NCBI GenBank assembly: GCA_023247195.1
Contig: JAHFGY010000008.1
Span: 1-33,561, forward strand
Direction: 5' to 3'
DNA length: 33,561 nt
Origin: Candidatus Omnitrophota bacterium
Lineage (GTDB): Bacteria > Omnitrophota > Gorgyraeia > Aquiviventales > Aquiviventaceae
Numbering within the stretch: the first letter of the stretch is position 1; each line of letters opens with the position of its first letter. The notes under the pieces were generated by a model. The model ran no database searches, was not told where the DNA came from, and was given only the letters and a program-made list of their open reading frames with translations. The position numbers were made by a program, and so were the translations under genes. Below, one piece after another: positions 27,802 through 33,561 of the stretch.

Positions 27802-28345
27802 CGTGCCGTTAGGGTCAAGACCCACTGAGCGCTTCCAGTGCGTGATCGAGATCCCGCGCGGCAATAAAACAAAGTATGAAGTGGACAAAGAGACCGGCAT
27901 GCTCCGCATGGACCGCGTGCTCTACAGTGCGGTGCATTACCCGGCTAATTACGGCTTTTTACCGCGTACCTTTTGCGAGGACGGCGACCCGCTCGACGTG
28001 CTGGTGCTGGCTCAAGAGTCTTTTGTGCCGCTGTGCCTCGTTTGGGCGCGTCCGATCGGCGTGATCACTATGATCGACGAGAAGGGCAAGGACGACAAAG
28101 TAATCGCGGTGGCGGAAAGCGACCCTGAGTTCAGCCGCTACGAAGAGATCTCCCAGCTGCCTCCGCACCGCCTTAAAGAGGTCAAGCGCTTCTTCCAGGA
28201 CTACAAAGTGCTGGAGAAGAAAGTCGTGAACGTCGATAAGATCCGCGGGCACCGCGATGCCTCGCAAGCGATCCGGCGCGCGGTCCGCTTGTACCAGAAA
28301 GTTATTCTTCCCAAATTGACGCGGCAGAACTGCGGTTGTGACTGA
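27785..28345 (+). CDS. ppa: Inorganic pyrophosphatase
   Basis: IEIPRGNKTKYEVDKETG, YPANYGFLPRTFCEDGDPLDVLVL, DEKGKDDKVIAV. Confidence 0.95.
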   Translation: MHPWHDVPLGSRPTERFQCVIEIPRGNKTKYEVDKETGMLRMDRVLYSAVHYPANYGFLPRTFCEDGDPLDVLVLAQESFVPLCLVWARPIGVITMIDEKGKDDKVIAVAESDPEFSRYEEISQLPPHRLKEVKRFFQDYKVLEKKVVNVDKIRGHRDASQAIRRAVRLYQKVILPKLTRQNCGCD

Positions 28346-28685
28346 CACCTCTTTCGCTGCTTATATTCAGGATCAGCTGAGCGCCTTGCCCAGCGTTTCA
28401 CTCCGGACGATGTTCGGCGGGCAAGGGATGTACTTTGGACACAATACCTGCTTTGGCATAGAATTCCGCAGCAGGCTCTATTTTAAAGTCGATACTCGAA
28501 ACCAGCCTGAGTATGAAGCCAAAGGAATGGCGCCGTTCCGGCCGTCTGCGCGGCAAACGCTGCGGAGTTTTTACGAGGTTCCTTCAAGCGTAATTGAAGA
28601 TGCGGATGAGCTTGTTTCTTGGGCGCGCAAAGCGATTGCCGCGGCTCAGGCCAATCCTCACAAACCGGTAAATAGGGAGGCACGG
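28338..28685 (+). CDS. TfoX N-terminal-domain protein (5' part of a longer ORF)
   Basis: MTDTSFAAYIQDQLSALPSVSLRTMFGGQGMYFGHNTCFGIEFRSRLYFKVD; GTG start overlaps ppa by 8 bp; no in-frame stop before the WG part. Confidence 0.7.
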
Positions 28686-29282
28686 ATGCGACGAGCGACA
28701 GGGTTGGTGTTCGCATGCGCGTTGGCTTGGTGTGGCGCTGTCTCCGCGGCGGAAGCCGAAAGCCAAGGGGCCGGGGGTGGGAAACAAGAACCAAGCCCCC
28801 AGTACATCATTCTCGCTCGCCGCTACGGTTATATTGACCAGAAGGGGAAAGTAGTCATTGAGCCGCAGTTCGAGTGGGGCGATCGTTTCGCGGAAGACCG
28901 CGCTGCGATCAAACTCGAAGGCCATTACGGGTATATCGACAAGACGGGCAAGATCATCGCGAAGCCGGAGTACGAAGCGGGGTGGGAGTTTTCTCAGGGG
29001 CTGGCGTCTGTGAAGAAGAACGGGAAGTACGGCTATATCGATACCAACGGCACCCTTGCCATCGCTCCGCAATATGATTTCGGCGGGCGTTTCGCCGAAG
29101 ACCGCGCCCGCGTCAAGGTCGGCGATTTCTGGGGATTCATCGACAAGACCGGCAAGATGGTTGTGCAGCCTGCTTATGATGAGGCCTGGGATTTTCAGGA
29201 TGGTCTTGGCCGCATCCAGTCGGCGGGAGCTATCGGCTATGTTAATGCCGAGGGTCAGGTAGTTTGGAAGCCCACGGAGTAA
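28686..29282 (+). CDS. Secreted WG-repeat protein (internal start within ORF 28338..29282)
   Basis: AGGGAGG 5 nt before ATG 28686; signal peptide MRRATGLVFACALAWCGAVSAAEA; repeated (R/H)YGYID..GK..I.P.FE WG-type units. Confidence 0.75.
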   Translation: MRRATGLVFACALAWCGAVSAAEAESQGAGGGKQEPSPQYIILARRYGYIDQKGKVVIEPQFEWGDRFAEDRAAIKLEGHYGYIDKTGKIIAKPEYEAGWEFSQGLASVKKNGKYGYIDTNGTLAIAPQYDFGGRFAEDRARVKVGDFWGFIDKTGKMVVQPAYDEAWDFQDGLGRIQSAGAIGYVNAEGQVVWKPTE

Positions 29283-30828: not shown

Positions 30829-30858
30829 TTGACAGCAGAGTCGATGATCGGGTATAGT
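30829..30858 (+). promoter_or_regulatory. Sigma70-like promoter upstream of riboswitch
   Basis: TTGACA (30829-30834), 18-bp spacer, TATAGT (30853-30858). Confidence 0.6.
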
Positions 30859-30906
30859 TTTTATTGTAGTTGCTTTTTATAAACAATTTAGTAAGTTTAA
30901 GTTCAA

Positions 30907-31020
30907 CCCGAAAAGGCACACCCACTGTAAGGTGGGGTCGGGCGCGAAACCCGCGCCACTTGGGTGAAATGCCCAAGCGCAAAGCCACGGGTCCCTTCCA
31001 GGGATAGCCGGGCTGCCGAA
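30907..31020 (+). promoter_or_regulatory. Putative cyclic di-GMP-I (GEMM-I) riboswitch aptamer, expanded
   Basis: AAAAGGCACACCCACUGUAAGGUGGGG (GNRA-capped hairpin) and CGCAAAGCCACGGGUCCC...GGGAUAGCCGGGCUGCCGAA match GEMM-I conserved blocks. Confidence 0.75.
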
Positions 31021-31041
31021 GAGGCAGCCCGGCTTTATTTT
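31006..31041 (+). terminator. Rho-independent terminator overlapping the aptamer 3' strand
   Basis: AGCCGGGCTGCC-GAAGA-GGCAGCCCGGCT then TTATTTT; perfect 12-bp stem. Confidence 0.88.
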
Positions 31042-31065
31042 GCAAGCGCTTGCGGAAGCGCTTGC
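31042..31065. repeat. Inverted repeat with tandem AAGCGCTT palindromes
   Basis: GCAAGCGCTT-GCGG-AAGCGCTTGC; first half also lies in the 12-bp palindrome GCAAGCGCTTGC. Confidence 0.7.
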
Positions 31066-31114
31066 GTTACAAGGGGAAAGGGAGTAAATTGTGGCTTTGC
31101 AACAGGAGGCGGGT

Positions 31115-31729
31115 ATGAAGGTACGCATCGCGATTTTGAGCTTGAGTCTCGCGGCGTTTAGCGCGCCGTTAATCGCGCAGGCGGCTACGGTCACCAGCGG
31201 TCCGGTTCAGGTAAGCGCGAGCGTCAATGCGCTGCAGCAGTTCAACTGCACGATTTTGCAGCACAACACGCCCACGGACGCGGGTACGCTTGTGACGACG
31301 ATGAACTTCGGGCAGTTGGCACGACCGGTTGATGCGACAGGCACGCCGTTGGCATTGGCCTCGACATCGTTCTTCCAGGTGTCTTGCGCGATCAACACGT
31401 CAGGCAAGGGCTACACGCTGACGCAGACCGGTACGGCTCTGACCGCCGGCACGGCCACGCTTCCTGCCGGTGCTTACGTTTTCACCCCCCTGAACATCAC
31501 CACGGGCCCGGGCGCTTACCCCGCGGGTGGCACGGTTTCCGCGCGTGGTTCCGCGGTCCGCACCGCAGCTGGTTGGTACGCACACCCGACCGGCGCTGCC
31601 GGCGTGATTCAGGCTACCTACGGCATCACCAATGACGCTGCCAACGGTGCTACGCAGTTCATCGCCCCCGATCAGGCGGCCGGTGCGTACACTGGTCAGG
31701 TGACTTGGACGTTGACCATCAACCCGTAA
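31115..31729 (+). CDS. Secreted SCPU/spore-coat-U-like pilin-type protein
   Basis: AGGAGG SD; signal MKVRIAILSLSLAAFSAPLIAQA; two Cys (FNCTI, QVSCAIN); C-terminus AGAYTGQVTWTLTINP. Confidence 0.6.
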   Translation: MKVRIAILSLSLAAFSAPLIAQAATVTSGPVQVSASVNALQQFNCTILQHNTPTDAGTLVTTMNFGQLARPVDATGTPLALASTSFFQVSCAINTSGKGYTLTQTGTALTAGTATLPAGAYVFTPLNITTGPGAYPAGGTVSARGSAVRTAAGWYAHPTGAAGVIQATYGITNDAANGATQFIAPDQAAGAYTGQVTWTLTINP

Positions 31730-31744
31730 GGGTAAAAATACTGA

Positions 31745-32572
31745 ATGAGTCGCGGTCTGGCAAGTAAACGACTCATCGCGATCGTGGGCCTGGCCTCCAG
31801 CCTGTTGCTGGGGGCCAGGCCTGTTTTTGCCATTAACCTGAGCGCTAGCCAGCCGGTTGTGCGCGAGACCTTGAAGCCCGGCGCGGCGATTCAAGGCAGC
31901 ATTGAGTTGACCAATTCCGGCCAGGAGCCGGTGCAAGTGAAGCTGTATTTGGAAGATTGGCGATACACCGAAGCGGGCGATGGGAACAAAGACTTCGGTC
32001 CGCCCGGAACCTTTCCGCGATCCGCGGCTGATTGGATCCGGTTTCGCCCCCAGCAGGTGGAAATAGCACCCGGCAAGACGGCGATCGTTGATTACACGAT
32101 TACGGTTCCTCAAGACACAACGCTCGACGGCGGCTATTATGCGGTTCTCTTCTTCGAATCCATGATCGCCGATCCCACGCAGGCCGACCAGGATTCCGTT
32201 GCCGTGAAGTACGCGGCTCGGCTCGGGAGCCTTTTTCTGGTAGAAATTGATAACACCGTTCGACGAGAGGCGACCCTGAAGGATGTTCAAGTGACCGCTG
32301 CCGCGGCAACGCCGCTGCGGATACAGGGCAGCCTGTCGAATGAAGGCAACGTGTCTCTGAAATGCTCAGGCACCTTCCATGTGATGAGCGCTCAGGGAAT
32401 GGTAACCGCGCGAGGCGAACTGCCGCTCCGCTACGTTTGGCCAGGCAATCAAGTGCCCTTTGAGGCTGAATGGCCCGGAAAGTTGGCATCCGGGGCCTAT
32501 TCCACGGTTGCTACCTACGATTGCGGAGACGACCTCGTGCTTGTTGAGGAGGTAGCGGCGTCCGTGCCGTGA
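31745..32572 (+). CDS. Periplasmic Ig-like / pilus-assembly-chaperone-like protein
   Basis: Signal peptide; INLSASQPVVRETLKPGAAIQGSIELTNSGQEPVQVKLYLEDWRY...FRPQQVEIAPGKTAIVDYTITVP...GGYYAVLFFES. Confidence 0.55.
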   Translation: MSRGLASKRLIAIVGLASSLLLGARPVFAINLSASQPVVRETLKPGAAIQGSIELTNSGQEPVQVKLYLEDWRYTEAGDGNKDFGPPGTFPRSAADWIRFRPQQVEIAPGKTAIVDYTITVPQDTTLDGGYYAVLFFESMIADPTQADQDSVAVKYAARLGSLFLVEIDNTVRREATLKDVQVTAAAATPLRIQGSLSNEGNVSLKCSGTFHVMSAQGMVTARGELPLRYVWPGNQVPFEAEWPGKLASGAYSTVATYDCGDDLVLVEEVAASVP

Positions 32573-33561
32573 TGGCACGCGGACGCTCGTGCCTCGCTCT
32601 TCTGTTTGCGGCAGCTTGGATGCTCGTTCAGGCTGCTGCAGCCTCCGCTCAAACCCCTGCTTCGCCTCCAGGCGCCGCTCCTCGATCGCTCGAACTTATC
32701 GTCGGAGAGCCCGCGGACGTCAGTTTCGGCTCGGTTGAACGATTCCTCGTCGGCGATCCCGCCGTGCTCGATGCCGAGCAGTTGAATCCGTCGACGCTCC
32801 GTCTTACCCCTCTGGCCCCCGGAAAAACATTTGTCCTTGTGTGGGGCCCCGAAGGCCGCCGCACATCCGTCGTGCGCGTCATGCCCTTTCGGTTGGGCCC
32901 GATCTTGCCTGAGCCGGCGGTTGAGGAGGCTGTTAAGCATGCGCGGGCTCTAAAGGTCGGTTACACGTTTGATTACGAGACGGATCGAAGAGGCTCAACC
33001 TTTCGCGACACGCGCCTGGATACCACCAACCGGTTCAATCAACAGCTGAACACGGACATGGAAACGCCGTACGGTGATTTTACGTCCCAGTTCCAGATGC
33101 AGCGCGTCAACAGCGTCGAGGATCTCACTTTCTGGCAAACGCGTCTTGCCCACGGCCATTTAGGCCCTGTGGATGACTTCGACGCGATCGCAGGAGATTC
33201 CTACATTCCCTTTGCCCGCGGGTTCGCGGTTCCGTCCGTGGGCTATCGAGGCGCGACCCTGAGGCTCGATGACTTGGGCCCGTTTCATGCTGCCGGGCTC
33301 TGGGGGCGTGAGCGGTCATCCATCTACAGCTTGTCGAGCCAGGGCGGGTTTGGGGTGAAGCGGGACTCGTTTGTTTCCGGACTCAACGTCGGCTATGAAG
33401 ACCCGGCGAATCCTTGGCAGGTCGAAGCGTCCACGCTTTTCGGCCAAGGAGACGAGCGCCAGGCCAACACCAGCGACGAAATGGTCGATCTCAGCAGCGC
33501 TTATCGCGTGACGGAAGTTTGGTCGCTCAAGCAGGAGCTCGCGATGAGCGATGAAAGCTTT
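32572..33561 (+). CDS. Outer-membrane protein with secretin/pilus-formation-type N-terminal domain and beta-barrel region; truncated at window end
   Basis: TGATG overlap with the upstream stop; open to the last base (hand-translated 330 codons): MARGRSCLALLFAAAWMLVQAAAASAQ...SLELIVGEPADVSFGSVERFLVGDPAVLDAEQLNPSTLRLTPLAPGKTFVLVWGPEGRR... Absent from the ORF track, presumably for lack of a stop. Confidence 0.75.
   Translation, partial: MARGRSCLALLFAAAWMLVQAAAASAQTPASPPGAAPRSLELIVGEPADVSFGSVERFLVGDPAVLDAEQLNPSTLRLTPLAPGKTFVLVWGPEGRRTSVVRVMPFRLGPILPEPAVEEAVKHARALKVGYTFDYETDRRGSTFRDTRLDTTNRFNQQLNTDMETPYGDFTSQFQMQRVNSVEDLTFWQTRLAHGHLGPVDDFDAIAGDSYIPFARGFAVPSVGYRGATLRLDDLGPFHAAGLWGRERSSIYSLSSQGGFGVKRDSFVSGLNVGYEDPANPWQVEASTLFGQGDERQANTSDEMVDLSSAYRVTEVWSLKQELAMSDESF

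Follow-up and report, generated by a model that had tools for sequence, protein, structure and literature searches.

A likely c-di-GMP ON riboswitch of an Omnitrophota bacterium carries a two-hairpin insertion that recurs at one point of the c-di-GMP-I aptamer

The c-di-GMP-I (GEMM-I) aptamer is among the best-studied RNA folds, and its P1b helix is viewed as a simple GNRA-capped hairpin. The locus described here lies in a 33,561-nt stretch (hereafter the window) of a 2.16-Mb metagenome-assembled genome (G000) from the little-studied bacterial phylum Omnitrophota, and it raises the question of what such an aptamer is, and how it might work, when two further hairpins stand between P1b and the next conserved block. 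A first-pass annotation had proposed an expanded c-di-GMP-I aptamer with two extra hairpins and a built-in transcription terminator, and all of the elements it named were found where it had placed them. They are listed here together with the promoter; all are on the plus strand.

30829–30858, +, strong sigma-70-type promoter, TTGACA-18-TATAGT (11 of the 12 consensus letters match; 0.3 such sites in the region by shuffling)
30905–31020, +, c-di-GMP-I (GEMM-I) aptamer with expanded P1b (RF01051, 37.7 bits, cut-off 35, E 4.7e-4 over the window)
30914–30918, +, AGGCA block, with G30916 equivalent to Vc2 G20 (RF01051 alignment)
30921–30936, +, P1b hairpin CCCACU-GUAA-GGUGGG, 6 bp, GNRA (GUAA) tetraloop
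30940–30978, +, inserted two-hairpin module, 39 nt, between GUC and GCAAAGC (folding z −4.2; 2 stems, 3 unpaired nt)
30941–30957, +, inserted hairpin H1, GGCGCG-AAACC-CGCGCC
30959–30977, +, inserted hairpin H2, CUUGGGU-GAAAU-GCCCAAG
30979–30985, +, GCAAAGC block, with A30982 equivalent to Vc2 A47 (RF01051 alignment)
30986–31017, +, P2 hairpin and aptamer 3' strand, with C31016 equivalent to Vc2 C92 (RF01051 alignment)
31006–31041, +, intrinsic terminator, whose 5' arm AGCCGGGCUGCC is the aptamer 3' strand

The score against RF01051 exceeds the gathering score of that family, which bears out the assignment to c-di-GMP-I, and in the alignment the window has 57 nt against 18 model positions of P1b. 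The same alignment puts G30916, A30982, and C31016 at the pocket positions G20, A47, and C92, which were mapped through what we take to be the Vc2 sequence. These three nucleotides contact the ligand in Vc2 (PMC11218506). P1b itself is a 6-bp stem closed by a GUAA loop. The CUAAG/UAUGG tetraloop receptor of the type I form was looked for in P2 of the window (CCACGGGUCCCUUCCAGGGAUAGCC) and is absent; since class-I members without the receptor have been described (type II, with a GYRA loop; PMC11218506) and GUAA fits GYRA, a receptor-less P2 is no bar to RF01051 membership. The 148-nt element folds with z = −5.3, and none of its shuffles was as stable. Judged by its sequence, this is a bona fide riboswitch of c-di-GMP class I, with c-di-GMP as its predicted ligand.

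The first-pass annotation also suggested that the element may belong to the c-di-GMP-I-GGC variant class, a placement that we now consider very improbable. RF03167 does score the window slightly higher than RF01051 does (38.3 bits), the two classes share overall fold and clan, and several insert-free or P2-extended relatives from the family pass RF03167; however, its gathering score of 59 is missed, the window reads CGCAAA (the ordinary GEMM-I letters) where the RF03167 consensus is CGCGAA, and the window carries the extra module. The cGAMP riboswitches of Geobacter (GEMM-Ib) have the same scaffold, and ON-type regulation is known in that group, but they have A at position 20. An assignment to GEMM-Ib, which would need A at the G20 equivalent, was rejected because the window has G30916. 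A tandem-aptamer reading was rejected as well, the window not being among 11 ordinary tandem or neighboring GEMM-I matches of the search pattern given below. The tandem riboswitches Bc3-5 (PMC4759541) resemble the window in having extra structure within one leader, but they are complete aptamers in series, whereas the window's hairpins lie inside a single aptamer.

H1 and H2 are both perfect hairpins, as first described, and they lie after the end of P1b, GGUGGG-GUC (to 30939), and before GCAAAGC (from 30979). When the module is cut out, the sequence becomes GGGGUC-GCAAAGCC, which is how ordinary aptamers look in relatives. The core without the module, AGGCACACCCACUGUAAGGUGGGGUC-GCAAAGCC, matches the insert-free AGGCACACCCGGAGTAATCCGGGGTCGCAAAGC of G011:C22, and uninserted sister aptamers of the form GGCACAC...GGGGTCGCAAAGC are present in the same family. 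Because removal leaves an ordinary GEMM-I core, each insertion would make P1b a four-way junction: the 39 nt would enter the 3' side of P1b at a single phosphodiester bond and create a near-perfect junction of the P1b base, the P1b-GNRA arm, H1, and H2. The three-dimensional geometry that we infer for it includes coaxial stacking. The window's junction is less perfect than most, with 3 unpaired nucleotides flanking H1 and H2, and its two stems place it within the two-hairpin subclass as we propose it (≤4 unpaired nt from GGNC to GCAAAGC).

The same insertion, exactly between GGNC at the end of P1b and GCAAAGC, was found in at least about 90 distinct riboswitches, a count that is not one of independent events since the sequences are to some degree related. 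The pattern, applied to genomes of the GTDB species set, called for a 6-bp GNRA-capped P1b, then 28–58 nt, then GCAAAGC; given these demands on P1b and GCAAAGC, divergent forms will have been missed. Together with the family loci, the scan yielded at least 61 distinct inserted aptamers after filtering for P1b pairing and removing tandems, two of which (L131 and L136) look like chance matches. The 11 ordinary tandem or neighboring matches removed came from Clostridia, Bacilli, Sulfuritalea, Bipolaricaulota, and others, and their presence indicates that other phyla were indeed read by the scan. Among the matches listed, all are Omnitrophota except two Auribacterota (L161, L184), one Planctomycetales-labeled bin, and one other bacterium.

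Within the window's class (246 genomes), 34 matches with inserts of 28–58 nt were spread over 25 genomes and 26 with inserts of 59–89 nt over 22, while the reversed pattern gave none for inserts of 4–27, 28–58, or 59–89 nt in the same genomes. In the window's family a strict core pattern found 64 uninserted cores in 27 genomes versus at least 16 inserted ones, which makes the insertion a substantial minority form. Recurrence of the two-hairpin architecture at an identical point in dozens of riboswitches puts the insert far beyond chance, and in terms of sequence the window riboswitch is a member of a recurrent architectural subclass of Omnitrophota and neighboring Auribacterota. A search of the open-licence literature found no paper that joins c-di-GMP, riboswitch, and Omnitrophota, and no description of a four-way junction in a c-di-GMP-I aptamer. 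An ordinary ligand class and read-out would be housed in a new, recurrent aptamer architecture, its novelty being provisional because only open-licence papers could be searched.

Exactly two abutting stems, with ≤4 letters outside them, are formed by 57 of 59 inserts, compared with 4.7 predicted from dinucleotide shuffles. The end of each insert in this set was fixed by the search pattern, except in four cases, where a decoy GCAAAGC in the H2 loop was passed over by manual extension. Shuffled inserts mostly fold as a single stem (64%), and the median folding z-score of the set is −4.8. With longer inserts added, 88 of 93 parse as two stems when the end point is chosen to minimize unpaired letters; exceptions or unclear parses are L122, L194, and L199. 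No clear single-hairpin insertion was found in the 246 genomes, where the search for inserts of 4–27 nt gave six matches: four (L199, L200, L201, L203) are the beginnings of longer inserts that the pattern ended early at a decoy GCAAAGC, one (L204) consists of two miniature hairpins, and one (L202) becomes two stems if its end point is set later. Decoy copies of this ligand-pocket block in the loop or stem of inserted hairpins were noted at L087, L171, L172, L094, and L199–L201.

The first-pass annotation had put forward covariation of the inserted stems as a check, and it was found both with RNAalifold and by comparing loci that precede homologous genes. When 11 aptamers whose inserts are similar in length were aligned with plain MAFFT, RNAalifold recovered P1b, H1, and H2, and 14 of 22 pairs are changed on both sides; the window itself is poorly aligned within H1 and H2 in this set. 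Two hairpins are likewise kept before homologous genes while module sequence and length differ almost completely. At L086, L100, L173, and L194 they precede one protein that is 50–72% identical among loci (L194 also has a competing single-stem fold), and at L085, L094, L103, L154, L169, and L249 they all precede another shared protein. The pair that closes H2 is pyrimidine-purine (Y-R) in 84 of 89 modules, whereas that of H1 has no preferred orientation, and this bias suggests that H2 stacks on the basal helix. Kissing between the loops of H1 and H2, hinted at by L178, L194, and L118, was considered and rejected: across the 89 modules, loop complementarity equals that of shuffled partners (mean Watson-Crick run 1.67 vs. 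1.64, p 0.35).

The predicted terminator is present as a 12-bp stem (31006–31034, 10 of 12 bp G-C) followed by UUAUUUU. The overlap of its 5' arm with the aptamer, together with the computed folds, upholds the mutual exclusivity of the two structures proposed in the first-pass annotation, and an ON switch is its natural reading. Left unconstrained, the RNA folds into the terminator state (−75.2 kcal/mol); with the terminator 3' arm blocked, the aptamer forms (−54.8 kcal/mol), and at a nascent length of 116 nt, ahead of terminator synthesis, the RNA adopts the aptamer fold as well. Since equilibrium favors the terminator state by 20 kcal/mol, switching must be co-transcriptional, and as the aptamer forms before the terminator is transcribed, ligand binding should prevent termination. 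Without c-di-GMP, the terminator would capture the aptamer 3' strand and transcription would stop; with c-di-GMP bound, the folded aptamer would keep this strand, RNA polymerase would read through, and the pilus-like operon downstream would be made. The same overlap of aptamer and terminator was seen by eye in four sister riboswitches of the window's genome (L002, L006, L010, L012). We regard it as likely that the locus is a c-di-GMP ON switch acting by antitermination and a representative of a new four-way-junction subclass, with the ligand response and the ON sense in cells predicted from the modeled folds. A perfect inverted repeat, GCAAGCGCTTGC...GCGCTTGC, lies at 31042–31067, after the terminator and before the first gene.

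Three open reading frames follow the riboswitch on the same strand.

31091–31729, +, secreted pilin-like protein (by eye); no match in Pfam/NCBIfam
31745–32572, +, secreted chaperone-like protein (by eye); weak, sub-threshold match to the pilin subunit UpsA
32569–33561, +, continues past the window end; pilus formation protein N-terminal domain (PF13629, E 5.5e-10)

The operon resembles those of pilus or adhesin systems, and the riboswitch probably turns it on. Type IV pilins, response regulators, and secreted proteins are encoded downstream of other subclass members. A small conserved protein with the pattern HRVVxFLxRxExDFLDK occurs repeatedly after expanded Omnitrophota riboswitches, at the same six loci given above (L085 through L249); the three members compared with Pfam had no match. 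Elsewhere in the window, at 28338–29282, a single open reading frame combines a TfoX N-terminal domain with four WG repeats, which is either an unusual domain pairing or two fused genes.

What the module contributes is a separate matter. H1 and H2 are present in every computed state, terminator or aptamer, and since they fold in both, the module is not part of the switch itself. It is probably a structural expansion, one that maintains or tunes the stacking of P1b and scaffolds or tunes the aptamer. The strong constraint on its structure could also point to a second sensor, that is, a site for a protein, an RNA, or a second metabolite that would make this a two-input switch, and a dedicated module does invite a dedicated partner. 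We find this improbable: loop length and sequence vary, complementarity between H1 and H2 is at chance, the junction pairs are the sole conserved sequence that a ligand or protein could read, and the module folds identically in both states.

A further alternative is that the module is a neutral or selfish palindromic repeat, tolerated because it is folded away from the pocket. Rickettsia palindromic elements, like REPs, are small palindromes dispersed in the genome. For REPs this is documented in PMC3733652. Such a palindrome, CCCCnACGCTTTGCTTCGCAAAGCGAAGCnTCGGGG, is indeed dispersed in part of the window's family; its 12-nt core has 16 copies in G026 and 6 in G018 (1 and 0 for the reversed control), and copies lie inside functional RNAs, namely an RNase P RNA (L258:1457-1814), a cobalamin riboswitch (L262:1431-1640), a Moco riboswitch (L255:1424-1588), and a GEMM-I aptamer with hairpins at another position (type B, L267; see below). 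Module arms also share sequence across genomes (L087, L171, L172, L233, L199, L229). However, nearly all module look-alikes in 1.26 Mb of searched DNA sit in GEMM-I cores, and simple insertion gives no reason to expect exactly two hairpins, no linkers, a single site, and a Y-R closing pair of H2, or two hairpins kept before homologous genes despite sequence turnover. H1-H2 of the window has no second copy in its own genome, where other matches are the GEMM-I core or partial matches of 14–22 nt. A recent repeat, having zero copies in the genome, was rejected as the source of the window's module. In contrast to Rickettsia elements and REPs, the insertion is double, is confined to one fixed point, and keeps structure over sequence, and the window's module is single-copy; we hold the selfish reading to be possible but doubtful. 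On the shared sequence, some modules may have originated from a palindrome, which would leave the doubleness of the inserts unexplained. Structural expansion is the reading that we prefer. The REP-like palindrome (core GCTTCGCAAAGC) was also observed beside tRNA genes in some Omnitrophota genomes, and further sites are at L265-L283.

Set beside c-di-GMP-I riboswitches of the Vibrio Vc2 and Bacillus Bc1 type (RF01051), the window shares the AAAGGCA, GCAAAGCC, and GCUGCCGAA blocks, the GNRA-capped P1b, the G/A/C pocket letters, a site upstream of surface-appendage genes, and a terminator read-out as in Bc1 (PMC11218506). It differs in the 39-nt two-hairpin module with its four-way junction in P1b and in the short P2 that lacks the receptor of the RF01051 consensus. 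A strict, phylum-wide two-hairpin expansion means that the c-di-GMP-I fold accepts a four-way junction beside the binding site. It also provides many natural variants with which to probe how peripheral domains affect ligand affinity and folding speed, and the absence of single-hairpin inserts is a directly testable rule on the insertions that a helix tolerates.

Hairpin pairs were also found at other positions. In seven aptamers of the family, two hairpins interrupt the 5' strand of P1b (type B), and all seven fold as these two plus a GNRA-capped arm, so that the junction forms wholly or largely within P1b; type-B loci include L050, L053, L058, L065, L070, and L267. A further pair directly 5' of GGC was observed in carriers of the 3' module (L056, L057, L141, L162, L178, L232, L251, L253). 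Tentatively, and as a rather unlikely proposal, Omnitrophota may possess a transferable two-hairpin module with three sites (5' of GGC, in the P1b 5' strand, and 3' of P1b), which would create a four-way junction at each, may derive from palindromic repeats like those that invade RNase P, cobalamin, and Moco RNAs, and may confer something new, for example altered affinity, a different folding speed, or a site for a partner.

Expanded riboswitches are easily overlooked. When 20 expanded loci were scanned with RF01051, 8 reached the cut-off (36.3–43.5 bits) and 12 fell below it; current models thus under-call them, and the c-di-GMP regulons of Omnitrophota will be under-annotated. The window's genome contains a second expanded GEMM-I (L018/L020, G000:C197:31247-31402), with different, longer inserted hairpins, which RF01051 detects as two sub-threshold fragments. 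About 16 c-di-GMP-I riboswitches above the cut-off, and more below it, were counted in this genome (L001–L020), and its relatives have up to 29 matches.
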